DNA from: Oscillibacter valericigenes
GTDB lineage: Bacteria; Bacillota; Clostridia; Oscillospirales; Oscillospiraceae
Reading direction: 5' to 3'
Assembly: GCF_016902445.1 (NCBI RefSeq)
Contig: NZ_JACSNX010000011.1
Coordinates: forward strand, 1-64,000
Length of the DNA: 64,000 nucleotides
Part shown: positions 19,584-33,818 of the stretch, in pieces
Layout: each line of letters begins with the position of its first letter
Position numbering within the stretch: the first letter of the stretch is position 1
Program-made: the position numbers and the translations under genes
The notes under the pieces: generated by a model
Told to the model about the DNA's origin: nothing
What the model saw: only the letters and a program-made list of their open reading frames with translations
The model's database searches: none

Positions 19584-19805
19584 TTATTCAACCGGTGGGA
19601 ACCTCCACGGCTCCGCCACACACTGGTACAGCACGGCTCCGCAGTTCCGGCAAATGACGTACTTTAACCGGTTGCCCAAGAATCCATTCCGCCGGAAGGT
19701 CACGATGGCCTCATTCTGCTGCCAGCCGATCCCCAGGTCATACGAGCCACACCAGGCGCAGCGGGTGACGGGGAGCTGCGGCTGTTTCTTTTCTCTGCTT
19801 TTCAT
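19584..19805 (-). CDS. Small zinc-ribbon protein
   Basis: This 73-residue protein is translated from the ATG at 19805, which overlaps the stop of the upstream integrase (TGATG), so it is translationally coupled. Two CxxC pairs (CAWCGSYD and CRNCGAVLYQC) about 35 residues apart form a zinc ribbon. No counterpart follows integrase 1 in element A. It may be an accessory or excision factor by position; this is inference. Confidence 0.65.
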   Translation of the reverse strand: MKSREKKQPQLPVTRCAWCGSYDLGIGWQQNEAIVTFRRNGFLGNRLKYVICRNCGAVLYQCVAEPWRFPPVE

Positions 19806-20980
19806 CAAATCTCCAACCCCTCCTGCAGCACCTGGCTGGCCGCCTTCTTGTTCTTATCGAACGCATGAGTATAGATGTCCAGCGTGGTGGACGGCTGGCT
19901 GTGGCCCAGGAGGCCCGCCACAGTTGCCACGTCAGCGCCGCCGGCGATCAGGAGGCTGGCGTTGGTGTGCCGCAGGGAGTGGACGTTCAGTGCGGTCGGC
20001 AGGCCGTGCTTCTTCAGGATCAGCTTGAACCGCCAGGTGAAGGTGGTGGGCGTCATGGGGAGCCGGTACCCATGGCGGCGGAAGATGTAGTCCGTGTCCT
20101 CCAGCTTTCGATTATCATAGGTCTCTGCCTCCCAGGCACATTCCCGCTGGAACTCTTTCAGCAGGGATTCCATCTCCAGAGAGAAGTAGACGTACCGGTC
20201 TCCGGCCACAGTCTTCGTTTCCTTGACGATGATGTCCTCGCCGGTGACCTTCACCACATTCCGCTGGATGTGGATGCTGCGTTCCTGCCAATTGACGTCA
20301 CCCCATTGCAGGCCGCAGCACTCGCCCCGCCGCATCCCGGTGGCGATGATGAGCTTGAAGTAGGCCTCGTACTTGAGGCTTTCCTCCTCCAGGGCGGCGA
20401 TGAGCCGCTGGGCGGTGGCCTTGTCGGCGATCAACTTCTCTTTTTTCTTCCCAGCGTAGCGGTACGTCCGCCAAGCCGGGTTATGGTCCAGAAAGCCGCC
20501 CTCCATGGCATCGGAGAGGATCCCGCACAGACATGCGTGGACTCCCTCAACGGTGCACTCGGAGAGCGGCTTTCCCGTTCTTTGATTCTTCACCTTCCGC
20601 AGATCGGCATAGAGCTGTCGGAAGTGCTCGGGACGAAGCTCTATCAGTTTGAGATTTCCCAGGACCGGCAGGAAGCGATCGATGTCCTGCCGCTCCCGGG
20701 CCAGGGTGGACTTGGCCAGCTTACCAGGGGCGATAGTTTGCAGCCACAGCTCCGTGTACTTCGCCAGCGTGATGGAGCGGTCCACCTCCTGCGGCAGGCC
20801 CTTGCACTCCCGCTCGAACAGGACTGCTTGCTCATTGAGCCATTTCTCTTTCTGCTTGGGCGTCAGTCCCTCCGGCGGATGGACAGTCTTTTGTTTGGGC
20901 TTGATGCGATTCCCCTTGTAGTCGTAACCCATGGAGACCACCAGCAGGTAGCTGCCGCCCCGCTTTCGAATACTTGCCAT
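19805..20980 (-). CDS. Tyrosine recombinase/integrase 1 of element B
   Basis: This 391-residue protein is translated from the ATG at 20980 (MASIRKRGGSY), the same start and length as in element A. The catalytic set is intact: ATGMRRGECC, HSLRH, GHSQPSTT and LDIYTHAF. Most differences from the A copy are scattered substitutions, so the two elements are related but not recent duplicates. Its stop overlaps the zinc-ribbon gene start. Confidence 0.92.
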   Translation of the reverse strand: MASIRKRGGSYLLVVSMGYDYKGNRIKPKQKTVHPPEGLTPKQKEKWLNEQAVLFERECKGLPQEVDRSITLAKYTELWLQTIAPGKLAKSTLARERQDIDRFLPVLGNLKLIELRPEHFRQLYADLRKVKNQRTGKPLSECTVEGVHACLCGILSDAMEGGFLDHNPAWRTYRYAGKKKEKLIADKATAQRLIAALEEESLKYEAYFKLIIATGMRRGECCGLQWGDVNWQERSIHIQRNVVKVTGEDIIVKETKTVAGDRYVYFSLEMESLLKEFQRECAWEAETYDNRKLEDTDYIFRRHGYRLPMTPTTFTWRFKLILKKHGLPTALNVHSLRHTNASLLIAGGADVATVAGLLGHSQPSTTLDIYTHAFDKNKKAASQVLQEGLEI

Positions 20981-21108
20981 GTTGTGTTGACCTCGCTTTC
21001 CTTGGCCTCGTTCCAGTTGAGGCCGGTTTTGCAAACACAACATACTGCAAGTGGGAAAGCAAAGCTATTGAAACTTTCGGAGAAACTCATTTTCTACAAA
21101 ACCAACAA

Positions 21109-22317
21109 TCAGGCGCTGCGAGATTTTGAGGAATATGCGGCGGCCAGGTTGAACAGGGCTTCGCCCTCCGGCCGGAGCATGGCGCGCATGGTGCTGGCAG
21201 CCTGCTCTTTCTGCTCCTGCTGCGGATGGCAGTAGGTGCGCTCCAGAAAGCCAGTGTCCGCATGGCCCACCAGATCCGCCACCGTCTGCTTGTCCACGCC
21301 GGAGTGGAGCAGGGAGGTCACATAGTAGTGGCGAAGCGTGTGCAGATGATATTCCTTCGGAAATCCTATGGACGCATAGATTTTCCGCAGCCGCTTGGTG
21401 AACGTATCCGGGTGAATGAGCTGCCCATGTTCGTCCGTGAAGAGATAGGGACTGAGTTCTCGGTGTGCCTGCAAGGCTTCCATCTGCTTCCTGCGGCGGT
21501 AGCTCACCAAGATCCCACGGATGTCGGATGAGAGAATGATCTCACGGCTGTGGCCGTTCTTAGTAGAGCCTTCCACGACACCTTTTCCCGGGACGATGCT
21601 GCGGGAGTGGCTGACCGTGAGGAGCAGGCCGTTTCCACTACACTTAAAATCCTCCCACTTGAGGGCACATAGCTCACCCCGGCGGCAGCCGGTGCACATG
21701 GAGAGGAGATAGAACATCCGGTAGTGCCGCGGCTCCTTTGCCAGGACATCCAGCAGCTTCTGAATCTCTGCTGGAGAGGGAATGTACTGAGCGGTGCGGT
21801 GTGTCATCGGCAGATCGATCATCCGGGCCGGATTCTTCTGGATGATCTCGTTCCGCTTGGCGTCGCTGAGAACGGCGGAGACCACGGTCAGGTACTTCTG
21901 CACCGTGGCCTCCCCGATGGGTCTGCCCCGGTATGTCCGCTTCCGCAACTCCGCCAGCAGATTCTCCAATGCGATGGGCCGCAGACGGTTGATGGGGATG
22001 GCGCCGATGAAGGGATATACCCGCCCCAGCATCCTCCGGTAGCTCTCCAACGTGCTGGGGGCGTACCGGACCTGCCGGGCCAACCACCGCTCTGCGAACT
22101 CCTCGAATGTCATATTCCCGTCCTCGCTGTACCCAGTCTTGAACTGACGCTCCAGTTCCTCCGCCTCGTGAGCCACATACTGCGGGATGCCTCGTTTGGG
22201 GATGCTCTCCGGCACCCGAATGGTCTTGGCTTTGCAGATTTTCTTCCCGTCGGGGCGGTAGCCGTTGCTGACGGTGATCTTGAACCTGCGGTCGTCCAGT
22301 TGCTTGATACTTGCCAT
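21109..22317 (-). CDS. Tyrosine recombinase/integrase 2 of element B
   Basis: This 402-residue protein is the same length as the A copy. Catalytic residues are present: TGCRRGELCALKW, HTLRH, GHADTGF and LERTYCH. It begins MASIKQLDDRRFK. It lies 128 bp upstream of integrase 1, the same spacing as in element A. Confidence 0.92.
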   Translation of the reverse strand: MASIKQLDDRRFKITVSNGYRPDGKKICKAKTIRVPESIPKRGIPQYVAHEAEELERQFKTGYSEDGNMTFEEFAERWLARQVRYAPSTLESYRRMLGRVYPFIGAIPINRLRPIALENLLAELRKRTYRGRPIGEATVQKYLTVVSAVLSDAKRNEIIQKNPARMIDLPMTHRTAQYIPSPAEIQKLLDVLAKEPRHYRMFYLLSMCTGCRRGELCALKWEDFKCSGNGLLLTVSHSRSIVPGKGVVEGSTKNGHSREIILSSDIRGILVSYRRRKQMEALQAHRELSPYLFTDEHGQLIHPDTFTKRLRKIYASIGFPKEYHLHTLRHYYVTSLLHSGVDKQTVADLVGHADTGFLERTYCHPQQEQKEQAASTMRAMLRPEGEALFNLAAAYSSKSRSA

Positions 22318-22360
22318 ATCTCAATATCCTTTCATAGTCAAATCGATTTCGTCCTCGTGG

Positions 22361-23641
22361 TCATCCGCTTTGTGACCGAGGGCGATTTTTTTTCTGCCGC
22401 TCCTTCTGCCGGAGCTTGCGGTCAGTGTGCTGATGTGTGGTGGTGGAATCTCTCACGGGAACAGCAACCTGACCACCTTCCAGAGTGCGGCAAAGCCGGA
22501 CCAGATCGTCTGCAAGACCACCATGCCAACCATGGTCGCCAGCAGGATCAGGGCCAGCCAGATCGAGACCGACAGCGCGGCCCGGAGACTGGGCGGCGAG
22601 ATAGAGAGCTCTCTCTTCTTCCCAGCCTGTTTCAACTCCGCCCGCATTTGGGCCACATCCCACGCCAGGGCCTCCGTCTGCTCCTGGGTGGGGCGCTGCC
22701 CCACCTGCTGGGACAACGCCCGTAACAGGGCCTCCTGTGCCGCAGCGCTGGCCTCCAGACCGTCCAGCCGATCCAGCAGTTCTTCCCAGTCCGCCTCTCG
22801 CAGCAGCACCATCGGCGAGGGAGATACCTTGCTGGGCTGATTCAGCCGTTTCCATTCCTCTGTAGATAATCTCCGCTCGGACTCGGAACTCACGTTCCAT
22901 GACCTCCTTCGTGTACTTCAGTTCGTGGAGCCGGTCATCCCGGCACTTCATCCCCTGGGGCGTGGTGTAGGTGATATTCTTCCGGCTGGCAGTCCATCGA
23001 ACCTGATAGCCCTCGCTCTCCATCAAGGAAATGAATTCTTCCTTGCTGGCGGCGAACTGCATACACTGGTCGATGGTGTTCATGAGCCGGAACTTCCAGC
23101 TCTCGCCCTTGGCGGCGGAGCGATACTCCCGGGCACCCATGCCCTGGGACTGTTTTTTCTTCTGCTGCGGCAGGACAGAGAATCCATGCTCTCGACACAG
23201 CTCATCCGACAGCTGCCGCAGGCTGCGAAGGGTATTCGGCCCCTGCCGGAGCATCTTGCCGCTCTCCCAGCATACCGCGTTGACGATGAAGTGGGAGTGG
23301 ATGTGCTCGGCGTCCAAGTGGGTGGCGATTAGCACCTCGCTGTCTGGCCAAGCTTTGGCGGCGAACTCTTTAGTCAGTTGCTGGGCCTGCTCCCCAATGA
23401 TCACCTCATCCGGAGAAAAGGACTGGACGTAGTGGTAAAACCACACGGGACTCTCCTTGTGGTACATATCCCGCGTGGCCTGGAACTCCTGGCTGACCAG
23501 TGGGGGCGTGCAGTTCTGCCCGCTGATCAACTGGCTGCCGTTTTCATCCAGTGTTTTCTCATCCTGAGACACATATTGCGCTACGCCACGGAGGGCACTG
23601 GCAGACTGTTTCTGGTATTTGATGAAGGTGACCGTGGCCAT
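22361..23641 (-). CDS. MOBP-type relaxase of element B
   Basis: In this 426-residue reading the relaxase domain fills the first ~250 residues, with HLDAEHIHSHF as the metal-binding motif. After about residue 249 it overlaps the embedded gene at 22453-22893, and its tail becomes Gly/Ala-rich with no similarity to the A tail. The stop of MobC overlaps its start codon (TGATG). The embedded gene's stop overlaps a GTG (GTGA) that could restart the last ~30 codons, mirroring the ATGA in element A. Confidence 0.87.
   Translation of the reverse strand: MATVTFIKYQKQSASALRGVAQYVSQDEKTLDENGSQLISGQNCTPPLVSQEFQATRDMYHKESPVWFYHYVQSFSPDEVIIGEQAQQLTKEFAAKAWPDSEVLIATHLDAEHIHSHFIVNAVCWESGKMLRQGPNTLRSLRQLSDELCREHGFSVLPQQKKKQSQGMGAREYRSAAKGESWKFRLMNTIDQCMQFAASKEEFISLMESEGYQVRWTASRKNITYTTPQGMKCRDDRLHELKYTKEVMEREFRVRAEIIYRGMETAESAQQGISLADGAAARGGLGRTAGSAGRSGGQRCGTGGPVTGVVPAGGAAPHPGADGGPGVGCGPNAGGVETGWEEERALYLAAQSPGRAVGLDLAGPDPAGDHGWHGGLADDLVRLCRTLEGGQVAVPVRDSTTTHQHTDRKLRQKERQKKNRPRSQSG
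22453..22893 (-). CDS. Membrane-anchored coiled-coil protein embedded in the relaxase gene (element B)
   Basis: This 146-residue protein starts at a GTG (22893) with AAGGAGG 9 nt upstream. An N-terminal polar part is followed by a coiled coil (about 35-95, EELLDRLDGLEASAAAQEAL) and a C-terminal hydrophobic stretch (about 107-140, WLALILLATMVGMVVL). It starts at the same codon offset in the relaxase as the 189-residue gene of element A. Architecture is shared but sequence is not, as expected for a fast-evolving helper-adapter protein. Confidence 0.78.
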   Translation of the reverse strand: MSSESERRLSTEEWKRLNQPSKVSPSPMVLLREADWEELLDRLDGLEASAAAQEALLRALSQQVGQRPTQEQTEALAWDVAQMRAELKQAGKKRELSISPPSLRAALSVSIWLALILLATMVGMVVLQTIWSGFAALWKVVRLLFP

Positions 23642-23958
23642 CAGCGCTTCTCCTGCTCCGCCAGATCCCGGAGCTGACAGTAGATCTGTCCCAGGGCCTC
23701 CATCGTCTCACCCAAGTACACGTCCTGGATCTTCCCCATGTTGGACAATACCACCAGCTGGTTCAGGTTGCGGCCGATGCCTTTCAGCTCATGGGTGAAC
23801 TCCTTCAGCCCGCCGATTACCACCACCCTGTGACGCAGGGCGGCGGTGCGGACATAGGCTCCCGTGGACATTTGGGCTGTATCCGCCTTAGACTGGATGG
23901 CTTCATACTGCTCCGGTGTCAGTCGAAGGGTGATCCGCTTTTCTTTTTTTTGTTTCAT
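23641..23958 (-). CDS. mobC: MobC-like relaxosome accessory protein of element B
   Basis: This 105-residue protein is translated from the ATG at 23958 with GGAGG 5 nt upstream; a much longer reading upstream lacks protein-like sequence. A ribbon-helix-helix-like N-terminus (ITLRLTPEQYEAIQSKA) is followed by the MobC motif GIGRNLNQLVVLSNMG. Its stop and the relaxase start overlap. Confidence 0.86.
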   Translation of the reverse strand: MKQKKEKRITLRLTPEQYEAIQSKADTAQMSTGAYVRTAALRHRVVVIGGLKEFTHELKGIGRNLNQLVVLSNMGKIQDVYLGETMEALGQIYCQLRDLAEQEKR

Positions 23959-24109
23959 GTATACCTCCGTAAAGTGGGTCCGGGCTTCCGCCCGGAAATC
24001 GCCGGTTTTCCGGCGGCGCCAAGACCGACAAAGTCGGACAGGCGCTCTGCTTGCCCTCCCGAATGGGAGGTTTTCCCTTGTCGGAGCCGTGCGCACCGCA
24101 TCCAGCAAA
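23959..24109. other. Short non-coding region between mobC and repA (candidate oriT, element B)
   Basis: About 150 bp with several short inverted repeats (for example GGGCTTCCGCCC near 23975 and CGCCGGTTTTCCGGCG near 24000). It corresponds to the longer 9263-9612 region of element A. A nic site is not recognisable by eye. Confidence 0.3.
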
Positions 24110-25144
24110 TCATTCAACAGAGTCGATGGTGACGATCTTTTCGGCAGCGAGATCATCGACACCATCGACACTTTTCAGGCAGATGAGCCTGCCCCCGTTG
24201 CTCCTGCGGAACGATACGACGATCCCGCTGTTCCTTAAAACCTCAACGTTTTTCCGAATTTGGTGGGAGAGACTGTTGGGCGTCAGTCCTTCGATGCCGG
24301 CAGGGTCGATCTTTTCCAGCAGCACCTTGGCAGGGACGCAGATCTCCGGCTGCGCCCGCAGCAATGCGGAGAGGAGAACAACGATCCGGTCATTGAACGG
24401 TCCCGCCTGCTCGCAGTTGTCACCGAGCAGATTCCAAACATGGTTCTCAACATTGAATTCCAGAGACAGTTCTCGGTAGGCGATATCCCGGCCCGTGCAG
24501 TAGAGGGTGGCAGAGTTCTCACCACGCTTGCTCTTGCGGAGCACAAAGTTGGAGTCTGTGGCGCCGCTCAGACCCGTGGTGCCGGAGATCATGTTCATGG
24601 GATCGTCGTCATTCAGCTTTCGCAGGTGGTGGATCAGCAGGATGGCAATGCGGTGACGGTCCGCCAGCGCTTTGAGAACGCCGATATCCCGGTAGTCGCT
24701 GGCGTAGGGATTGGTCTCATTACCGACCGTGCGGATGCGCTGGAGGGTGTCGATGACTACCAGACCAGTGACCGGATGCTCTTTGAGGAACTGTTCAATC
24801 TGTTCCACCAGTCCACTGTGGAGTTGCTCTGCCATCACGGCGAAGTGTAGCGACGGGGGTGCGTCCTCGGTGAGATCGAAGAGGCGGCTTTGGATGCGCT
24901 GGAAGCTGTCCTCCAAGCAGAGGTAGAGAACTTCGCAGGGTTTTGTGGCGAAATTCCAGAGGGGTTTGCCCTGTGCGGTACAGAGGCACAACCATAGGGC
25001 CAGCCAGGACTTGCCGATCTTCGGCGCCCCCGCCAGCAGATGGAGTCCCTGGGGCAGCAGATCCTCCACGACGAACGAGAGCGGTTCGTAGGGAATGCTC
25101 TGCAAGGTATCTGCGTCAATGGTATTCAGTTTTTTGATTGGCAT
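24110..25144 (-). CDS. RepA-like AAA/RecA-fold replicative helicase of element B
   Basis: This 344-residue protein is translated from the ATG at 25144 (MPIKKLNTIDADTL) with AGGAGG upstream. Walker A GAPKIGKS and Walker B LVVIDTL are as in the A copy, and the middle 200 residues are nearly identical. The extreme C-terminus is shorter than in A. It should unwind the replication origin of the excised circle. Confidence 0.82.
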   Translation of the reverse strand: MPIKKLNTIDADTLQSIPYEPLSFVVEDLLPQGLHLLAGAPKIGKSWLALWLCLCTAQGKPLWNFATKPCEVLYLCLEDSFQRIQSRLFDLTEDAPPSLHFAVMAEQLHSGLVEQIEQFLKEHPVTGLVVIDTLQRIRTVGNETNPYASDYRDIGVLKALADRHRIAILLIHHLRKLNDDDPMNMISGTTGLSGATDSNFVLRKSKRGENSATLYCTGRDIAYRELSLEFNVENHVWNLLGDNCEQAGPFNDRIVVLLSALLRAQPEICVPAKVLLEKIDPAGIEGLTPNSLSHQIRKNVEVLRNSGIVVSFRRSNGGRLICLKSVDGVDDLAAEKIVTIDSVE

Positions 25145-25220
25145 GAGAACCTCCTGATGTATTTTGAATTGCAGAGAAAAAATGTCTTGCGCTTCGGCAG
25201 GCTCTCTGTTAGACTGAACA

Positions 25221-25292
25221 CAGATGGGAACTGCGTTTTCCGAAACGCGGCGCGCCGCCAGGCTGTTGCAGCAGTTTGGCGGTTTTCCTTTT
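25221..25292 (+). ncRNA. Candidate antisense RNA across the repA leader (element B)
   Basis: TTGCGC (25187-25192), 16 bp and TTAGAC (25209-25214) are followed by an 11-bp hairpin (25255-25265 with 25272-25282), loop TTGCAG and a T-rich tail to 25292. Compared with element A, the stem change A to G keeps pairing with U. Sequence between promoter and hairpin is also well kept although no protein is encoded. Confidence 0.5.
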
Positions 25293-25467
25293 CCTGCGAT
25301 GGATGAGCGGTCACCACCTCCTGATGGTTTGAGTGTCCACACACCGGAGTCCTCTCTGCTCCATTGGTACGCTCGTCCGCTGTGACAGAACCAGCGGAGT
25401 CCTGGCGATACTTCTCCTGGAACGTTCGATTTCCAGCGGTGGGATTCGGTTGTCAAGGTAGATGAGG

Positions 25468-25540: not shown

Positions 25541-25625
25541 GACCTTGGAACAAAGTTTAGCGTCTCTGAAAGTAAGTCGGGTAAAATTTGAAAAGTGTAT
25601 CGGGTACAGAGGGGCGTGGCAGAGA

Positions 25626-26720
25626 ATGTACTATATGAATCATGATGCCGTAGACTATTTTCGCGTGGACTTTACGCCGGAGGACAGCATCGTGGATGGA
25701 AAGCACTATCCGCTGGGTACCTTTGCGGCGGAGATGCTAGATCGGGGGTGGGAGGCGGTCGCAGACATCCGCTGGCCTCTGAAACGGTTTCAGGAGGAGT
25801 TCCAGGTATTTCTGGCGTCCAGAAATCCATCCAGCAGTGGGATGGCCCTCCAGGCGATGCGGGAGTTGTGGCGGGTGCTGGGGAAGCTGCCGCTCTATAA
25901 CAAACTGCTGCCAGGGGATCATCAGATGGAGGCATTGCTCCTGTATTTGCGGGAGCACCCGGATCTGACGGATGATATGCTGACACCGGGGACGCCCCGC
26001 AACGAGGCGTACACCCGGTGGATGGAAAAGCTGGAGAGCCTAGAGGACGAGCTACAGGCCTTTGTAAAAAACGCAACGTGGATGCTGGAGGAGTTCTTTC
26101 AGAACCTGCCCTCCAGGAAGCGGCAGGACTATCTCCAGGCCTACGCCAGCTATCGTTGGATCATGGAGGAGGCCATGCAGCAACGGAAGGACACGGAGGA
26201 CGAAGGGGAAGTGTGGGAAGATGCCACCGTGGATCTGGACACAGTCTCCTTTGATTACCCAGTGAACATCTCCCTGGTTCCCATCATGGAGACAAGAACC
26301 CACCGTCTGACGCTGGCGGAGCAGATGACCTTTGAGAGCCTCGCCAGCTTTTTGTACGTGGATCTATACAAGGGCATGGGTGCGGGGAACCTGCCCCGGC
26401 GGTGCGCCCACTGTGGTCGGTGGTTTCTGGCAGAGGGCGGATACGACACCCTCTATTGCAATCGGGTGGTGCCGGGTGCGAAGGGGAAGACCTGCCGGCA
26501 AGTCGGAGCCCATGAGCGTGAAAAGGAGAAACGGAGAACTGAGACAGCGGCCCGGGAGTACAGCCGGATATATAACCGTCTGAAGGCCCGGAAGCGGCGG
26601 GGGCGGATTACCACGGACGCGTGGAACCGGCAGGTGGCCCGGGCCCAGGAATTGAAGGACGCATTCACCGCCCGCCAGATCACCCGGGAGGAGTACGTGC
26701 AGAAACTGGATGCACTGTGA
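25626..26720 (+). CDS. DUF6076 family protein (element B)
   Basis: This 364-residue protein is translated from the ATG at 25626 (MYYMNHDAVDYFRVDFTP), the same length as the A copy and similar throughout. The C-terminal zinc-finger-like set (RCAHCGRWF, YC, TCRQ) and basic helical tail are kept. The family function is unknown. A stem-loop follows the stop at about 26728-26757. Confidence 0.72.
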   Translation: MYYMNHDAVDYFRVDFTPEDSIVDGKHYPLGTFAAEMLDRGWEAVADIRWPLKRFQEEFQVFLASRNPSSSGMALQAMRELWRVLGKLPLYNKLLPGDHQMEALLLYLREHPDLTDDMLTPGTPRNEAYTRWMEKLESLEDELQAFVKNATWMLEEFFQNLPSRKRQDYLQAYASYRWIMEEAMQQRKDTEDEGEVWEDATVDLDTVSFDYPVNISLVPIMETRTHRLTLAEQMTFESLASFLYVDLYKGMGAGNLPRRCAHCGRWFLAEGGYDTLYCNRVVPGAKGKTCRQVGAHEREKEKRRTETAAREYSRIYNRLKARKRRGRITTDAWNRQVARAQELKDAFTARQITREEYVQKLDAL

Positions 26721-27208
26721 GAAAACAGGAAGCCTGTCCCGGATGGGACAGGCTTCCGCTGCTGTTAGACCGTTGGGCTTATCAGAGACAATAGGGAGTA
26801 GCCGAGGAGCAGACTATCCTTCAGTTTAGCTTCCTAGAACTGCTGATCCTACGGAAAATAACGTTCTCTGACGGTGGGATAATGGCTTTAAAGGCAGTGC
26901 TGATGTAGCCGTTCCAATGTTGCCATCAGGAGTGATTTGCGCGGGCAGTGTGGAACGTACTAACTGATAAGAAAGAAATTCTAATAAATCCTTCATGTTT
27001 GCTATACAACTAAATAGATGCGGGCACTGAACAATCGCTACAGAATCTGCATTCCTGTATCGACCAAATGGGAAAACTGATTTTTTATTCCAATAAAGGA
27101 TAACAGGAACTCCGCATGGGCGGGGAACATCCTATAAGATCAAGTCAGTACACATAAGTGCTGTTCAAGACGGTAAAATAAAAACAATTACCGAAAAGGA
27201 GGAACTCC
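26721..27208. other. Intergenic between the element B backbone and surface module
   Basis: About 490 bp, AT-richer than the backbone, without a gene I can support. It marks the switch from leftward mobility genes to the rightward surface module. AAAAGGAGG before 27209 is the next gene's ribosome site. Confidence 0.4.
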
Positions 27209-28044
27209 ATGGAACAGCAAGTGATCACATCAGAACAGATTATAGCTTATAACGCCTGGCTTCTCAATGAGGAAAAAGGCCCCGGTACCGTTGAAAAGTA
27301 TCAGCGGGATGTTGGGGCACTCGCAGCCTGGCTGAATGGCGAGGCGGTGACAAAGGAACGGATCTCAGCATGGAAGGATTCCCTGCTGGAAAGGGGCTTA
27401 GCTCCGGTCACGGTCAACTCCATGCTGGCGGCTGTCAATAGCTTCCTCCGATTTACTGGCTGGGAGAACTGCCGGGTTAAATTCCTGAAGATCCAGCACC
27501 GCATGTTCCGGGACGAGTGTCGGGAACTGACCCGGTCTGAGTACGAGCGCCTGATTGCCGCTGCCTACGCCCAGGGCCGGGAGCGGCTGGCTTTGCTGAT
27601 GGAGACTATCTGTGCTACAGGAATCCGTGTCAGCGAGGTGCGTTACCTCACTGTGGAGGCAGTGGGACATGGAAAGGCGGAAATCTCCCTAAAGGGGAAG
27701 ATCCGCACAGTCCTCATTCCTGGCAAGCTGTGCCGCAAGCTGCTGAAGAAAACAAAACCGTTTCCGGTGAGATCTTTCTCACCAGAAACGGGACCGGTCT
27801 CTCCCGCCGGCAGATCTGGGCGGAGATGAAGACTCTGTGTGCAAAGGCGGGAGTGGAAACCAGCAAGGTCTTTCCCCACAACCTGCGGCACCTGTTCGCA
27901 ACCACCTTCTACCGGGTATGCCGGGATATCGCCCGGCTGGCAGATGTTCTGGGACACAGCTCCATTGAGACCACCAGAATCTACTTGGTCACCTCCGGGG
28001 AAGAGCACGCCAGGATCCTGGATCGTCTGCAGTTGGTCTCTTAA
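27209..28044 (+). pseudogene. Tyrosine recombinase with a frameshift
   Basis: The first frame (27209-27829) gives an N-terminal SAM-like domain and the catalytic Arg (CATGIRVSEVRYL). It then leaves the family pattern in an A-rich stretch near 27744-27757. The next frame (readable from about 27730 to 28044) continues with SGEIFLTRNGTGLSRRQIW, HNLRH, GHSS and TRIY. Together they make about 278 residues, a normal XerC/D-like length with all catalytic residues. A single one-base deletion, a sequencing error or a -1 ribosomal shift could explain this. It lies 3 bp before the left repeat of the candidate promoter switch, so it is the likely switch recombinase. Confidence 0.78.
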
Positions 28045-28046
28045 CA

Positions 28047-28314
28047 ACAAAATCATCACTTTGAATAGAAAGAGCCTATGGACAGAGAGATGCTCTCTGC
28101 ATTTTGGACGCAAAATAATCCGCACATATTTTGCGGGCTGAAAATAGGCGCAAAAACAGAAGCCGGTCAAATTCCAGCTTATTCCGGCTTATTTTTGCTG
28201 CAAAAATTCTTTGGCGCTCTTGAAAAATAAAGGAATCTGTGATAAATTAAACAAATAAACAATATGTAGTTCATTTGTTTTTTGCAGCATTCTATATCAA
28301 AATGATGATTTTGT
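28047..28314. promoter_or_regulatory. Candidate invertible promoter segment (phase switch)
   Basis: 18-bp inverted repeats with one mismatch (28047-28064 and 28297-28314; ACAAAATCATCACTTTGA against its near-complement), extended by ATAGAA on the inner side with a 1-nt offset, flank 232 bp. The segment holds a rightward promoter and, before it, a hairpin (AAGCCGG...CCGGCTT, then ATTTTT) that could end transcription from the recombinase. The position between a tyrosine recombinase and a surface-protein operon is typical of phase-variation switches. In this assembly the promoter points toward the surface operon. Confidence 0.6.
28220..28248 (+). promoter_or_regulatory. Promoter inside the candidate invertible segment
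   Basis: TTGAAA (28220-28225), 17-bp spacer and TAAATT (28243-28248), followed by AT-rich DNA. The inferred start is near 28255, so the right inverted repeat would lie in the 5' untranslated region of the next gene. Confidence 0.6.
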
Positions 28315-28331: not shown

Positions 28332-29165
28332 ATGAAAGCCTTTAAGAGCACACCGACCAAGGCTGCTACCGCTCTGGATCAGCCGGCCCGTATTACTACG
28401 GAATCAGTCCGTGCCTATCTGGCGGACCTGTCGGCCCGGGGGCGAAGTGTTGCCACGGTGCGGGGCTACGCTTCCAGACTGCGGACCCTGTGGGAGGACC
28501 TGCCTCCGGACAAGCTGGTCCGGAGGGAGACGCTGGTCGACTGGCAGAATAAGCTGCTTGACCGGGGGTACTCCCCTGGGAGCGTCAACATCCATCTCTC
28601 CGCCGCCAACGGCCTGCTGGAGTACATGGGGCGGCGGGACCTGCAGCTGGTGGGACAGCTGGATGCGGTGCCCGAGATCCAGCCAGAGCTGACACGGACG
28701 GAGTATCTGCGGCTGCTGCAGACAGCCCGGACCTTGGAGAGGGAGCGGATCTACCTAATGGTAAAGGTATTCGCTCTGACCGGCATTCGGGTGGGAGAGC
28801 TGCCCCTGTTGACAGCGGAGGCCGTAGAGACGGGGTGGCTGTCGGTCAGCGGGGAGCAGAGACCGATTCCTGGTTGCCTGCGGCGGGAGCTGCTGGATTA
28901 TATTGCCAGAAATGGCATCCGGTCCGGCCCGGTGTTTGTATCTCGGAACGGACGCTCTCTGCAGCGGACCCAGGTGACGGCGGAGATCCAATCCCTGAGT
29001 CGGGACGCACGGGTGGAGGCAGCCAAGTGTACCCCCCGGGGCTTGCAGCGGCTCTACCGGGCTACTCAAGCGGAAATCGAGAATGACATCCGCCTGCTGA
29101 CGGCACGATCTTATGAGCAGATGCTGAACACCGAGCAGCTAGCCGTGGGCTGGGAGAACACGTGA
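28332..29165 (+). CDS. Tyrosine recombinase-like protein with degenerate active site
   Basis: This 277-residue protein is translated from the ATG at 28332 after GAGGTGA. It aligns with the recombinase fold of the preceding gene: an N-terminal SAM-like domain (about 20-100), the first Arg (TGIRVGEL) and a C-terminal Tyr (ARSYEQM). The HxLRH box is replaced by CTPRGLQR, so the His is lost, and the GH box is absent. It is unlikely to cut DNA efficiently alone. It may bind the same repeats as a partner or directionality factor. It is the first gene downstream of the candidate switch. Confidence 0.72.
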   Translation: MKAFKSTPTKAATALDQPARITTESVRAYLADLSARGRSVATVRGYASRLRTLWEDLPPDKLVRRETLVDWQNKLLDRGYSPGSVNIHLSAANGLLEYMGRRDLQLVGQLDAVPEIQPELTRTEYLRLLQTARTLERERIYLMVKVFALTGIRVGELPLLTAEAVETGWLSVSGEQRPIPGCLRRELLDYIARNGIRSGPVFVSRNGRSLQRTQVTAEIQSLSRDARVEAAKCTPRGLQRLYRATQAEIENDIRLLTARSYEQMLNTEQLAVGWENT

Positions 29166-29270
29166 TCCCGCCTGTATGCGGGAACTGGAGCCTGCCGAGA
29201 CGGCAAATAATCAGCTCCCCAGCGTGAATCAGCAGAACCACAGAATATCTCACATTTTGCAGGAGAAGCC

Positions 29271-30653
29271 ATGAGCGGGAAGTTGAAAAGAAAGCACGGC
29301 GATTTGCGCAGCCGGGAAAAGGAAAGGCAGGCGTCCGGTGAGTCACGGTATATCGCTGTGACGCTATTTCTTGCATTCTTCATATTTACATTTATCGGCG
29401 CGGGAAATTTTATCATTGTCTCTCTTGTCGGCCTGTTTTTGTGTGCCATAGGGCTTGTGCAGTCTTCTGTGCGGGTGGACCTGTGGATCCTGGTCCCGCT
29501 GATTCTCTATAACGGGATCAGCCTGCTTTCCGGATACCGCACCTACGGCAACACGCTGGATGGATATGCCTCCACGCAGTCGGTTTTTCCGGTGATCTAC
29601 CTTCTGATGTCATATCTTGGCAGTCAGGAGCGGAGACTTCTCAAAAGTCTATGCGCCGTATGGGTCGGTGTGATGGCCACCATCGGTATCGGGCAGTTCG
29701 TGATGGCGGCATTCTCCGGGTCGGCGACCAGATTGTCCGGCCTGATGGGAAATCCCAACGCCATGGGCGCGATGCTGGCGCTTGGGTGGTTTGCCCTGCA
29801 GAGCTGCCTGCGGGAAGAGAATGGGCCCGCGCTGGAGCGGTTCCTGCGGGGCCTGGAATTCATTACACTGACAGCCCTGGCGCTGACGCTTTCCCTTGGG
29901 GCATTTGGGGCGCTGGGCATCGGCGTCCTTGTGATGCATTTCTATGGAAAAGAATGCTTTTCCTCCCTGCTGTGTCGATTGGCGGAAATGATCTTCGCCG
30001 GCGGCTGCGGGATCCTTCTCTACATTGCTGGAAACGCTACGAACTGGCCATGGCTTTGCCTGATCCTGTGCGGCTATATCCTGATCGGAGCATGGTATCG
30101 GGGCCAGTTTGAGCGGGAACTGTCCGACGGGAAATGGGCAAAGCTCCTGATCTGCCTGACCGGAGCTTTGGGTGCGGGCGTGGTGGCCTTTTTAAGGCCA
30201 AACGCTGCGGCGACATTTGCGGAACGGCTGGCCATGATCCGGAACGGGCTGGGATATCTGGGGGTGGATCCCCTGCTGGGCGTTGGGCCCTATCAGTGGC
30301 GGAGACTGAACCTGCAGGATGCGGATACGTACTTCAACACTTGGCACATTCACAATGTGTTTGTCCATGTGGGGGTGGAACTGGGGCTGATCGCCATGGC
30401 CATGCTGGCCATCGCCGTGGTCCGCCATTTCCGCAAGCGGGAGGATCCGGCCCAGCGGGGCGCGTTTTCTGCCGCCCTCGTCCACAACCTGATGGATACC
30501 AGCTTTTTCTATATGGCGACCGTGCCGTTTTTGATCATGACCGCCGGAGACGACGAAGGGAAAAAACGCCGTCTGAGCGGAGCCGCCGTGAAGTGCATGT
30601 TCAGTGTCTTCGCTGTGCTGTTTGCCTGGAACATGGTCCAGATCTTCTGGTAA
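29271..30653 (+). CDS. O-antigen ligase/polymerase-like membrane protein
   Basis: This 460-residue protein has about ten or more hydrophobic segments. The large loop before the last helices carries the Wzy_C/WaaL-type pattern GVGPYQWRR followed by HNVFVHVGVELGL. Such enzymes move lipid-linked glycans onto acceptors: lipid A, other polymers, or proteins (PglL-type O-oligosaccharyltransferases). There is no LPS in this organism type, and the neighbours are a pilin-like protein and a sortase. Glycosylation of that surface protein, or glycan polymerisation, is therefore the best guess. ATG at 29271 with AGGAGAAG upstream. Confidence 0.72.
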   Translation: MSGKLKRKHGDLRSREKERQASGESRYIAVTLFLAFFIFTFIGAGNFIIVSLVGLFLCAIGLVQSSVRVDLWILVPLILYNGISLLSGYRTYGNTLDGYASTQSVFPVIYLLMSYLGSQERRLLKSLCAVWVGVMATIGIGQFVMAAFSGSATRLSGLMGNPNAMGAMLALGWFALQSCLREENGPALERFLRGLEFITLTALALTLSLGAFGALGIGVLVMHFYGKECFSSLLCRLAEMIFAGGCGILLYIAGNATNWPWLCLILCGYILIGAWYRGQFERELSDGKWAKLLICLTGALGAGVVAFLRPNAAATFAERLAMIRNGLGYLGVDPLLGVGPYQWRRLNLQDADTYFNTWHIHNVFVHVGVELGLIAMAMLAIAVVRHFRKREDPAQRGAFSAALVHNLMDTSFFYMATVPFLIMTAGDDEGKKRRLSGAAVKCMFSVFAVLFAWNMVQIFW

Positions 30654-30670: not shown

Positions 30671-31360
30671 TTGAGCACAAAAGCACAATCGAAAAAAGCG
30701 CGCCCGCGTCCGCATGGCATGGCGGCGCTACTGGCGGCCTTCTGCGTTCTGGCCGCCGTTACCCTGGCCGGGGCCTATCAGGCGCAGCAGGCGCTTCCCC
30801 CCTATGTGGGGAAGGACCTGACAGAGGAGGAGGCGGCGGAGGTCATCGCCAGAAACAGCCCCCTCACCTCGTATGTCCGTCTGTCCCCTAATGCCGACTT
30901 TCCCAGAGAGGAGAAGATCACCAAGATCACGATCCACCACATGGGAGGGGATCTCGCGCTGGACGCGCTGGGCGCCTCCTTCGGCAGACGGGACCGGGAG
31001 GCCTCCGCCAACTACGGGATCGACAGTGACGGGAATGTCGGCCTCTATGTGGAAGAGGCAAATCGTTCGTGGGCAAGCTCCAGCCCTGAAAACGATCATG
31101 CGGCAGTCACCATCGAGGTGGCCAACGAGGAAACAGGCGGCAACTGGCGGGTCAGCGACCGCGCCTACGAGGCGCTCATCGCCCTGTGTACGGACATCTG
31201 CCGGCGCAACGGCATGGAAGAACTGGTCTATACGGGGGATGCCAATGGAAGCCTGACCATCCACAAGATGTTCGCGGACACAGCGTGTCCCGGGCCCTAT
31301 CTGGAGAGCAGAATGGAGGAGATCGCAGAAACAGTCAGCAAAAATCTGAAGGGCTATTAA
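30671..31360 (+). CDS. N-acetylmuramoyl-L-alanine amidase (Amidase_2), membrane-anchored
   Basis: The TTG start at 30671 is chosen because AAGGAGGTG ends 10 nt upstream; an ATG at 30661 is in another frame. The 229-residue protein has an N-terminal membrane segment (about 17-38). The zinc amidase fold shows ITIHHMGG near residue 89, NYGIDSDG, and HKMFADTACPG near residue 200 (His and Cys ligands). It cuts the bond between MurNAc and the stem peptide, presumably opening the wall for assembly of the surface structure. It is part of the surface operon. Confidence 0.83.
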   Translation: MSTKAQSKKARPRPHGMAALLAAFCVLAAVTLAGAYQAQQALPPYVGKDLTEEEAAEVIARNSPLTSYVRLSPNADFPREEKITKITIHHMGGDLALDALGASFGRRDREASANYGIDSDGNVGLYVEEANRSWASSSPENDHAAVTIEVANEETGGNWRVSDRAYEALIALCTDICRRNGMEELVYTGDANGSLTIHKMFADTACPGPYLESRMEEIAETVSKNLKGY

Positions 31361-31418
31361 AGCCGACTTATCTAAGAGCGCGGCTGGTGCCGCGCGGTTG
31401 AAGGAGATGGAAACGATT

Positions 31419-33143
31419 ATGGAAGCAGTGAAAAGAAATGTCTGCCGAGGCGTCATATTTCTGATGGCCTGCCTGACATGCGTTGTGGTGTTCGGGGGCG
31501 GCCTGATCGCAGAGGCTGCCGCTCTTGCACCCTATGCCACCTATACCACCTACGCATGTGATCTTGGCATCAACGTCACAAAGACGCTGATCGGGCGGGA
31601 GTTCCGAGAAGGAGATGAATTTACCTTTAAGATTGAGCCGCAGAACGAGGAGAACGAGGAGTACAATAAGGTAAGTAGTGAGACTGTAACTATTAGGGCG
31701 ATGAATAATGGAGAGGGCCTAATTCCAACTGGAAACACGGCCGAAGCCGACGATAGGGCAATATTTATTAAATTCACATGGCCAGGGGAGTATGTCTATT
31801 GCATTTCCGAAGTCGAGCCGGACAAGGGCGCCCTGCCAGGCATCATCTATGATCAGACGAAGTACAAAGTGACGGTTACTGTGGGTGTGAAGGAAGACCC
31901 CGTCGTTGACCCTTCTGACCCTGTCGAGAACAATATCACCCTGGCAGACGGCGGAGAAGAGAACGGGCTTTCTGGTGATGGGGACAACCAGAGCGGCGGG
32001 GACGACGCTCAAAGCAAAGAAAGCGTCCAAAAAGAGCTTGAAGTCACGAACGTCAAAGTCGAGAAGTATTCGAGCAGTGATGGTGAATGGCCAGTCGTAT
32101 ATGATGGACCACCTCTTAAGGACAAGCAATATTGCGCCTTTACCAATATATACGGCACCAGCGTCGGCCTGACCGGCACCAAAACATTGTCTGGCCGCGA
32201 CTTTCAGAGCGGCGATACATTTACTTTCACCATCACGAGAGAAGATGGTGCCCCCGCCCCGGTGGATGATAAAGGAAAGTCTCTGACAGAAGTGACGATC
32301 CAGCCGACGTCTGGAGAAAAGTCTGCAGAAATCGACTTTGGCACGATCTACTTTACGCCCGAGGTTCTGGGTGGGGGCGAAGAAAAAACCTTCACCTACA
32401 TGATCACCGAGAAGCAGGGCGAAATCGACGGGATGACCTATGATACGGCCCAGCGTACGGTTTTGATCGAAGTGAAGCGCCAGGATGACGGAAGCGTGAC
32501 GGCAGAGGTGGTGGAATCGGAGTCTTCTGCGCTTTCGTGGACCAATACCTGGGATGATCCTGACGACCCCGGTGAGCCGGGCGGTGACCCGGGCGATGGT
32601 CCGGGTGATGATCCCAGTCCCAGCTACACCAGCCTGACAGTGAACAAAGAGTGGATCCTGGACGACGGCGGCGAGGCGCCGGTGTCCGTGACAGTGGAAC
32701 TGCTGCGGAACAACAGAGTCTATAAGGAAGTCACGTTAGACGAGGACAATGATTGGTCGCATACATGGACACGCTTGGATGGTCGCTTCAACTGGAAGGT
32801 GCAGGAGGCCGATGTGCCGGACGGGTTCACCGCCGAGGTCTCCCACCGTGGGACCATCTGGACCATCACCAACGACGATATCCCGGAGGATCCCGAGACG
32901 CCCCCAGAGGAACCGGACGAGCCGGACGAACCGGATACCCCGGAGGATCCGGTTACTCCCGATGAGCCGGACGTGCCCGACACGCCGGACACCCCTGATG
33001 AGCCAAATACACCCAACGAACCGACACTGCCCCAGACCGGGCAGAACTGGCGGCTGGTCTGGATTCTGGCCATAACTGGAGCCGTTCTGGTGCTGGTCGG
33101 AATTCTGGGGAAAAAGGGATACCACGGCAAGCATGAGGCGTAA
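31419..33143 (+). CDS. LPXTG-anchored pilin-like surface protein
   Basis: This protein has about 574 residues. The ATG at 31419 is preferred, as AAGGAG lies 12 nt before it. After a signal peptide come two pilin-type beta domains (starting near VTKTLIGREFREGDEFTF and LTGTKTLSGRDFQSGDTF) with Lys and Glu (ITEKQGEIDG) placed as in self-forming isopeptide bonds. A Cna_B-type domain (VNKEWILDDGG...VTVELLRNN) follows, then an acidic Pro-rich stalk (EPDEPDTPEDP-like repeats). LPQTG, a membrane helix and a basic tail end the protein. This is a sortase substrate of the Spy0128/FctA kind. Its stop overlaps the sortase start. Confidence 0.88.
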   Translation: MEAVKRNVCRGVIFLMACLTCVVVFGGGLIAEAAALAPYATYTTYACDLGINVTKTLIGREFREGDEFTFKIEPQNEENEEYNKVSSETVTIRAMNNGEGLIPTGNTAEADDRAIFIKFTWPGEYVYCISEVEPDKGALPGIIYDQTKYKVTVTVGVKEDPVVDPSDPVENNITLADGGEENGLSGDGDNQSGGDDAQSKESVQKELEVTNVKVEKYSSSDGEWPVVYDGPPLKDKQYCAFTNIYGTSVGLTGTKTLSGRDFQSGDTFTFTITREDGAPAPVDDKGKSLTEVTIQPTSGEKSAEIDFGTIYFTPEVLGGGEEKTFTYMITEKQGEIDGMTYDTAQRTVLIEVKRQDDGSVTAEVVESESSALSWTNTWDDPDDPGEPGGDPGDGPGDDPSPSYTSLTVNKEWILDDGGEAPVSVTVELLRNNRVYKEVTLDEDNDWSHTWTRLDGRFNWKVQEADVPDGFTAEVSHRGTIWTITNDDIPEDPETPPEEPDEPDEPDTPEDPVTPDEPDVPDTPDTPDEPNTPNEPTLPQTGQNWRLVWILAITGAVLVLVGILGKKGYHGKHEA

Positions 33144-33753
33144 AATTTTGATCGGCGGAGGGCTGCTGCTTCTGGCAGCAGCCCTTCTTCTCGCCGGGGG
33201 AAATTTTCTGGAGGCGGATCGGGCTGCCCTGGCCTCGGAACAGGTACTTCAGCAGATGGAGCCTCCTGCGCCGGCCGAGGCAGATCCGCCGGAGGAACCG
33301 GAAGAGGTAGTCCCTGCCTATGTGCTGAATCCAGACATGGAGATGCCGGAGACGGAAGTGGATGGACATCGCTACATCGGCGTGCTGGAGATCCCGGCGC
33401 TGGAGCTGGAGCTGCCGATAATGAGCCAGTGGAGCTACCCAAATTTGAAAATAGCGCCTTGCCGATATCAGGGGTCTGCCTATCAGAACGACCTGATCCT
33501 GCTGGCCCACAACTACAGCCGGCACTTCGGACAAATCCACACGCTGGAACCGGGGGACACCGTATGCTTTACCGACGCGGATGGAACCCGGTTCATGTAT
33601 GAGGTCTCTCTGGTGGAACAGCTGGAGCGGACCGCCATTGAAGAGATGGAGAGCGGCGACTGGGATCTGACCTTGTTTACCTGCACGGTGGGCGGTGCCG
33701 CCCGGGTGACTGTCCGCTGCCAGCAGACGGATGACAATGCGGCAAGCAGGTAA
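33133..33753 (+). CDS. Sortase
   Basis: This 206-residue protein has an N-terminal membrane anchor, a Pro/Glu-rich linker and a sortase domain. Catalytic His is in LLAHNYS, Cys in TLFTC and Arg in ARVTVRC. It is short, closest to class D-type sortases by eye, but the class is uncertain. It overlaps the LPXTG gene by 11 bp, so the two are made together. It should join the LPQTG protein to the wall or to other subunits. Confidence 0.85.
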   Translation: MRRKILIGGGLLLLAAALLLAGGNFLEADRAALASEQVLQQMEPPAPAEADPPEEPEEVVPAYVLNPDMEMPETEVDGHRYIGVLEIPALELELPIMSQWSYPNLKIAPCRYQGSAYQNDLILLAHNYSRHFGQIHTLEPGDTVCFTDADGTRFMYEVSLVEQLERTAIEEMESGDWDLTLFTCTVGGAARVTVRCQQTDDNAASR

Positions 33754-33818
33754 GAGGCGGCTCCTGCTGTGTGCTGCGTTTTCACAAATCAAATGCTTGT
33801 CTTTCCGGAAAAGACGCA

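Follow-up and report, generated by a model that had tools for sequence, protein, structure and literature searches.

The locus and its gene content

The window, namely the whole stretch of 64,000 nucleotides from Oscillibacter valericigenes that was analysed, carries on its plus strand two genes related to tyrosine recombinases, separated by a short intergenic region with an inverted repeat at each end. The upstream gene, designated Rec1 (27209-28044), encodes an Xer-like tyrosine recombinase recognised by domain matches, the presumed invertase in relatives, and is frame-broken in the window; two bases separate the end of its stop codon (28044) from the left repeat (28047-28064, plus strand). 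The right repeat lies on the minus strand (28297-28314), and the enclosed segment of 232 nt (28065-28296, plus strand) contains a terminator-like hairpin predicted by folding and assigned to no strand (28148-28201), followed by a plus-strand promoter (28220-28248) with the elements TTGAAA-17-TAAATT and a TG before the -10, which reads into the downstream gene, Rec2.

Rec2 (28332-29165, plus strand) begins with the ATG at 28332, 17 bases past the right repeat, and is the first gene of the switched operon; its product is a catalytically dead paralogue of tyrosine recombinases that ends in E-Q-x3-G-W-x3. It is followed on the same strand by genes for a membrane-type protein (29271-30653) with a weak Wzy_C/O-antigen-ligase likeness (E 6.5e-4, below the Pfam cut-off), an N-acetylmuramoyl-L-alanine amidase with an Amidase_2 domain (30671-31360), a pilin-like surface protein with FctA and Cna_B domains and an LPQTG anchor of the LPxTG type (31398-33143), and a sortase assigned by domain match (33133-33753). 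The sequence-only reading of this DNA had a surface operon begin after the right repeat: an operon does start at that point, with Rec2 as its first gene and the surface genes farther on, and the labels "pilin-like" and "sortase" are borne out by these domains and by the anchor.

In the nearest relative (L036), Rec1 is again followed by repeats and Rec2, after which come genes for an SLH-domain protein (1112 aa), a Cna_B-containing LPxTG protein (1040 aa) and a sortase. DNA similarity of the window to L003, the locus from the nearest relative, is limited to blocks at 27052-28064, 28407-29174 and 32628-33766. To the left of the switch, the region 19805-25456 of the window encodes on its minus strand two integrases, a MobA-type relaxase and a NikA/MobC-like protein, accompanied by an AAA_25 protein (24110-25456); this region is probably a mobilizable element. 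A DUF6076 protein is encoded at 25545-26720, in the interval that separates these genes from the switch. Both the integrase and the relaxase genes (19.8-24.2 kb) lie outside the block homologous to L003 (27052-33766), and the DUF6076, relaxase and integrase proteins of the window have no tblastn match at 1e-15 in L003; the earlier suggestion that a mobile element delivers the switch is therefore unsupported.

Inverted repeats, hairpin and promoter

The two repeats of the window, 18 nt each and 232 nt apart, are complementary at 17 of 18 positions (94%) and score 15; the 290-nt intergenic region, when shuffled 300 times with its dinucleotides preserved, reached at most 14. The described anatomy of 18-bp repeats around 232 nt with a promoter and a preceding hairpin is confirmed, the repeats exceeding chance, and the locus has the arrangement that characterises invertons, inverted repeats flanking a promoter. 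No further copy of the window repeat, at up to two mismatches, was found in the draft genome of 106 contigs. The promoter stands on the plus strand facing right, in agreement with the claim that the assembled state is ON; two weaker promoter-like matches lie on the minus strand, and chance alone would give 1.0 match in the region. Located 5' of the promoter, the hairpin has a core stem of 7 bp (28160-28166/28184-28190) and, with its extension, spans about 28148-28201; its folding z is -1.93, and since 9 of 200 shuffles fold equally well, it is modest as stand-alone evidence. GCCGG-type stems resembling it were seen by eye in many related segments.

The switch family among related genomes

The search with Rec2 covered 86 genomes of the same genus, 37 of which had a Rec1- or Rec2-type match, and the stretches compared were 40 from the genus and 40 from the family; the relatives with names are labelled Oscillibacter or Oscillospiraceae. 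A Rec1-like match of some kind occurs in 282 of 300 family genomes, many of these matches being weak and perhaps belonging to ordinary Xer proteins, and at E <= 1e-60 such matches are found in about 79 of the 300 (counted by eye).

Inverted repeats scoring at least 10 are present at the Rec1 end in 59 of 70 usable Rec1 loci, and in 48 the score is at least 13; this count leaves aside three Rec1-class ORFs without TR[IVL]Y (the N-terminal piece in the window, L104 and the second ORF of L124), L062, which is near an edge, and L074, a duplicate. By the same score rule repeats are missing in the other 11 of the 70 (L047, L051, the first L067 copy, L070, L087, L096, L101, L114, L118, L120 and L121). 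In the first set examined, 32 of 36 loci outscore all 40 of their own shuffles. The left repeat begins between -11 and +19 nt from the Rec1 end in 56 of the 59 repeat loci, and the inner segments range from 192 to 277 nt. A promoter score of at least 9.5 is reached by 50 of the 59 segments versus 7% of shuffled ones, and in 45 of these 50, ON and OFF alike, the distance from the exit end to the start of the -35 is 60-92 nt (77 in the window).

The repeats share a recognisable site. By a strict arm test, the core CARAAT-N4-ATTYTG is found in 21 of 45 loci, and a weight matrix built from these strict-arm sites matches both sides in 56 of 59. The 4-nt centres of the left and right sites are identical in all 57 loci with a placeable core (two were skipped), a result that the procedure used for picking repeats partly favours; these centres are of 38 distinct kinds, one of them palindromic, and the arms differ between left and right in up to 13 of the 57 loci per position. 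Matched centres are a requirement for strand exchange by tyrosine recombinases. The sites of the window fit this model, with CATC as the centre in both: the left core (28048-28063) is CAAAAT-CATC-ACTTTG and the right core (28298-28313), read on the minus strand, is CAAAAT-CATC-ATTTTG. Moreover, the distance between Rec1 sequences correlates with the distance between site arms (rho 0.29, 0 of 2000 permutations, n=55). By their composition, the repeats are built like recombination sites.

Both orientations in relatives

By a fixed rule for promoter direction, 13 of the 59 loci are ON, 34 OFF and 12 undecided. Pairwise alignment of 60 segments, i.e., the 59 plus that of L108, gave 53 direct and 22 inverted pairs at a score of at least 30, the top of 269 null scores being 15.5. 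The window segment, assembled in the single state ON, is inverted relative to the segments of L042, L043, L040, L037, L038 and L041 (inverted scores 33-47, direct scores 10-18), and it has a weak inverted match, with a score of 21, to that of the closest relative, L036.

The clearest pair is L107/L108, two draft contigs of one genome, in which the segment is inverted with 99.3% identity over 277 nt and the flanks are collinear (98.8% over 86 nt at the Rec1 end, 96.1% over 178 nt on the downstream side); the L108 contig starts in the last 86 nt common with L107, beside the site. The same arrangement is present in L110 versus L113, also draft contigs, with 291 nt inverted at 90.7%. Base differences between L107 and L108, followed by eye, show that outer half-sites stay with the flanks and inner half-sites move with the segment, so that the exchange falls in the site centre. 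Inversion within the switch family is well supported by these alignments, and inversion at the window locus itself is presumed by kinship with them.

The adjacent recombinase Rec1

In the relatives Rec1 has the full catalytic set, and the catalytic Tyr is found in 37 of 37 Rec1 sequences of an earlier set chosen by score alone and excluding the window; its presence in 65 of 65 sequences of the tree and alignment is by construction, as the rows were filtered on TR[IVL]Y. The window gene is split: 27209-27829 encodes the N-terminal portion and 27730-28044, in another frame, the C-terminal one. Its length falls 10 nt short of that of the open L036 gene, with the alignment gap at about 27747. The recombinase gene reported before the left repeat is in its place, its stop ending two bases before the repeat, and is not intact. 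Likewise, the proposal of a phase switch is upheld as regards an invertible promoter by anatomy and family; flipping at the present day is doubtful because the adjacent Rec1 is frame-broken. The window locus can be called a member of the inverton family by descent whose activity has perhaps been lost, and the switch is probably frozen ON through the loss of Rec1, unless a paralogous recombinase works in trans. The same genome has four tandem Rec1-Rec2 pairs (contigs 3, 96, 10 and 1), and its Rec1 paralogues L039, L043 and L047 have open frames and the catalytic Tyr.

Rec2, a recombinase paralogue without catalytic residues

An alignment of 60 different Rec2 and 65 Rec1 sequences shows that the catalytic Tyr, His II (HxxR) and His III are each present in 0 of 60 Rec2 proteins, one row being gapped at the Tyr; among the other catalytic residues, Arg I is kept in 20, Lys in one and Arg II in 45 of the 60. 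The Rec2 of L059 has a Tyr one column off the catalytic one, inside its E-Q-L-T-Y-G-W end. A motif E-x-xxx-[GAS]W near the C-terminus is found in 58 of 60 Rec2 versus 0 of 65 Rec1 sequences, and in a quick tree the Rec2 proteins form one side of a single branch with SH-aLRT 100. The loss of catalytic residues is thus established by comparison of the aligned proteins. Rec2 varies more than Rec1, with a median identity of 44% versus 64% in 36 pairs; nevertheless, its dN/dS lies between 0.065 and 0.31 in the 14 closest of 19 pairs, and between the window and L036 it is about 0.36 for Rec2 and about 0.17 for the sortase. On these substitution ratios, Rec2 is under purifying selection.

At E <= 0.001, the only domains matched by the window Rec2 belong to the Phage_int_SAM and Phage_integrase families, and no NusG-like domain is found. 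Domain matches and a structural model (mean pLDDT 88.8, pTM 0.59) agree on a predicted tyrosine recombinase fold with core-binding and catalytic-type domains. By E-value the nearest structure is XerA (5hxy, E 6.6e-10, TM 0.44), and the model superposes better overall on lambda integrase (TM about 0.6). Where the last catalytic helices would be expected, the model has a single long helix (residues 235-273); the corresponding part of the L036 Rec1 model has four shorter helices of low confidence (pLDDT 43-67). XerC and XerD are both catalytic partners; with respect to XerC/XerD and XerA, Rec1 carries the same catalytic set and Rec2 is devoid of the Tyr and both His.

Distribution of Rec2 and the operons in which it occurs

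Counted by eye, 31 of 400 family genomes, representing 16 genera, have Rec2 at E < 1e-70; at the threshold E <= 1e-60, seven of 345 genomes from the order have it, three of the seven belonging to another family. Of 76 Rec2-class ORFs, a total that includes fragments and second copies, 52 have a Rec1 gene no more than 1500 nt upstream. The first cargo proteins were scanned for domains at 36 of 41 loci, each trimmed to its last 650 residues; L066 and L092 (frame errors), L105 and L038 (both by choice) and L102 (a near-copy of L101) were left out, and nine further Rec2 loci had no cargo ORF by the rule used. With overlaps possible, the 36 proteins include eight with SLH, five with Cna_B and five with DUF7601 domains, four nucleotidyl transferases, three ABC-2 membrane proteins and a few glycosyltransferases, so surface proteins or polysaccharides are the output of many Rec2 operons. 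For the first cargo protein of the window itself, no domain match was obtained at 1e-5. A separate scan, again of the last 650 residues, took in all 16 loci without an adjacent Rec2 that had a cargo ORF.

The position of Rec2 is not uniform. In L107, L112, L113 and L115, a large ORF starts after the repeats and Rec2 lies behind it, and in L117-L121 longer forms of Rec2 (447-537 aa) are followed by a Rec2-like ORF of 187-189 aa; sugar-nucleotide or other polysaccharide-type genes come next in several of these. In L109 and L111, both from a single genome, Rec2 stands behind an element of another kind, about 1.46 kb long, which is bounded by 21-nt repeats, carries an integrase gene and is in opposite orientations at the two loci; the Rec2-side flank is collinear (79%) and the other flanks are unrelated. 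Envelope and export-like genes come next in L109 (by eye). At five loci (L057, L058, L059, L061 and L116), the 3.2-3.9 kb examined upstream of Rec2 contained no Rec1, and at 13 chosen loci, these five included, no core site of at least 12 bits was found within 900 nt upstream of Rec2, a search that a divergent site could escape; L116 has one core site of 12.6 bits, 102 nt past the Rec2 stop. The idea that Rec2 always acts on Rec1 sites is disfavoured by the 13 loci. The five loci with neither Rec1 nor an upstream core site argue against Rec2 being just one more player in the inversion reaction, and the varied contexts point to a component of phase-variable operons rather than of one inversion reaction.

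Some loci have other proteins in the place of Rec2. In L046, L071 and L074 the protein encoded there is 422-423 aa long and has two stretches of integrase domain, that of L071 having winged-helix matches in its C-terminal part, and in L122 and L124 a protein with DUF4379, a treble-clef zinc finger, stands behind the Rec1-type switch.

Proposed mechanism and alternative explanations

The explanation that accounts best for the locus, and that is put forward with high confidence, is an invertible promoter of a family presumably flipped by Rec1, here ON and probably frozen, whose operon starts with a likely regulator. Rec1 would act on two inverted core sites of 16 nt (CARAAT-N4-ATTYTG) just behind its own gene and would flip about 230 nt containing one sigma-A-type promoter and the hairpin. 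In the ON state transcription from the promoter would cross the right site and enter Rec2 and then the surface genes; in the OFF state the promoter would point back to the 3' end of Rec1. The first product, Rec2, a recombinase paralogue deprived of catalytic residues and kept by purifying selection, is most likely a DNA-binding regulator made in the ON state only; its targets may be the expression of the operon or the exclusivity of surface loci, given a position like that of Bacteroides UpxY/UpxZ.

That the window switch still flips, the frame break being due to misassembly or to a minority allele, or a paralogous Rec1 (contigs 96, 10 and 1) acting in trans, is a distinct possibility, though the less probable course: both sites are retained with identical centres and the open paralogues with the catalytic Tyr are available in the same genome; however, the change in Rec1 is a 10-nt length difference and not a homopolymer slip, the site arms at contigs 96 and 10 (CGGAAT/CAGAAT) differ from CAAAAT of the window, and the contig-1 locus (L047) yielded no repeats. 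It is highly improbable that no inversion system exists and that the repeats are a fixed regulatory element, such as an operator or a terminator, or the att sites of an integrated element: a hairpin in the region and mobile genes 3-8 kb to the left of the repeats could be read in this way, but segments homologous to one another are found both ways round between flanks that stay collinear, the centres agree within a locus and vary from locus to locus, and the repeats are inverted and not direct.

For Rec2, decay as a functionless leftover of a recombinase duplication is improbable as well. Catalytic residues are lost in all 60 proteins, variability exceeds that of Rec1 and two copies are broken (L066 and L065), yet dN/dS is well below 1, the C-terminal motif and the single well-supported branch set Rec2 apart from Rec1, and strong matches extend over the 31 family genomes and 16 genera counted by eye. 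Rather unlikely, although by no means as remote, is a role as accessory subunit of inversion, in which mixed complexes with Rec1 on the sites would set rate or direction, for example by stabilising ON. Paralogy with Rec1, the adjacency in 52 of 76 cases, expression coupled to ON by position and the correlation between Rec1 and Rec2 distances (rho 0.38, 1 of 1000 permutations) suit this role; linkage by itself can produce the same correlation, which is therefore not used as proof of interaction, and Rec2 is present elsewhere without Rec1 and nearby core sites and also behind the different invertible element of L109 and L111. The preferred reading of Rec2 as an ON-state regulator can be extended, tentatively and at somewhat less than an even chance, to an undescribed class of regulators, recombinase descendants devoid of catalysis whose remodelled C-terminus is a long helix ending in E-Q-x3-G-W, which are made only in the ON state as usually the first products of capsule and surface operons under phase variation and report the ON locus in cis or in trans, whatever the invertase. 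As members of such a class of new regulators, Rec2 proteins may act in expression feedback or in the mutual exclusion of loci.

Comparison with known systems

Invertible promoters are already well known, and the dead recombinase behind the promoter is the new part; the literature covered, most subscription papers lying outside it, contained no description of such an arrangement. The portion of PMC11892184 available to this comparison describes, by read mapping, inverton group 139 with 33 members, 32 of them in Clostridia, linked to a tyrosine-type recombinase (invertase group 35) and with orientation changes in culture. Likened by description, group 139 and the Rec1 loci both have short inverted repeats near a tyrosine-type recombinase and about 230 nt of invertible DNA. 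In particular, an Intestinimonas inverton of that study has 14-nt repeats and, by its coordinates, an inner part of 227 nt, the same dimensions as the Rec1 loci; sought by coordinates, it was not found among the family matches listed. In the same portion of the paper, invertases near invertons are described as generally non-regulatable, group 145 being a potential exception, and no dead recombinase is named behind the promoter. By analogy, this published inversion in Clostridia is consistent with the reading of the window.

Invertible switches of C. difficile are treated in PMC6837544 and PMC9286219, in the accessible text of which no dead recombinase is described and "catalytically inactive" refers to a cyclase. 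The pdcB switch (PMC9286219) is also an invertible promoter in a Clostridium-class relative with the ON state facing the regulated gene; that gene, however, codes for a c-di-GMP phosphodiesterase, and no dead recombinase in first position is mentioned in the part of the article at hand. In the capsule loci of Bacteroidales, as far as the consulted excerpt of PMC12118408 goes, an invertible promoter likewise precedes a surface or polysaccharide operon headed by dedicated regulators, of which UpxY is an antiterminator and UpxZ an inhibitor of UpxY, whereas Rec2 has a tyrosine-recombinase fold. Rec2 does not belong to the UpxY antiterminators, a NusG-like domain being absent from its matches at E <= 0.001.

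The switch family offers a clear site model, with arms and a variable but matched centre, often occurs in multiple copies per genome and sits ahead of genes for giant surface proteins or for sortase-anchored proteins, or of polysaccharide operons. Should Rec2 be a regulator, as its place in the operon hints, the coordination of numerous phase-variable surface loci in bacteria would find an explanation.

Rec1 matches and inverted repeats on viral contigs

Seventeen viral contigs (L126-L142) match the Rec1 alignment, L142 weakly, and L128 and L129 are identical. Inverted repeats occur right after the Rec1 gene in 11 of the 16 viral contigs examined, and in most of those inspected the cargo looks different. 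Four contigs (L127, L132, L134 and L136) end 3-6 nt past the Rec1 match; reading these ends as assembly breakage at the repeat was dropped, and the breaks are not used because provirus trimming may explain them, proviruses being at times trimmed at gene ends. Among the family genomes, five Rec1 matches on the minus strand (G298:C6, G365:C101, G319:C36, G321:C28 and G321:C5; counted by eye) begin within 19-30 nt of where their contig starts; this evidence is weak and is not relied on. A search of the viral contigs with the Rec2 sequence alone gave no match, and one with the Rec2 alignment retrieved one contig; viral contig L126/L143 carries Rec2 besides Rec1.
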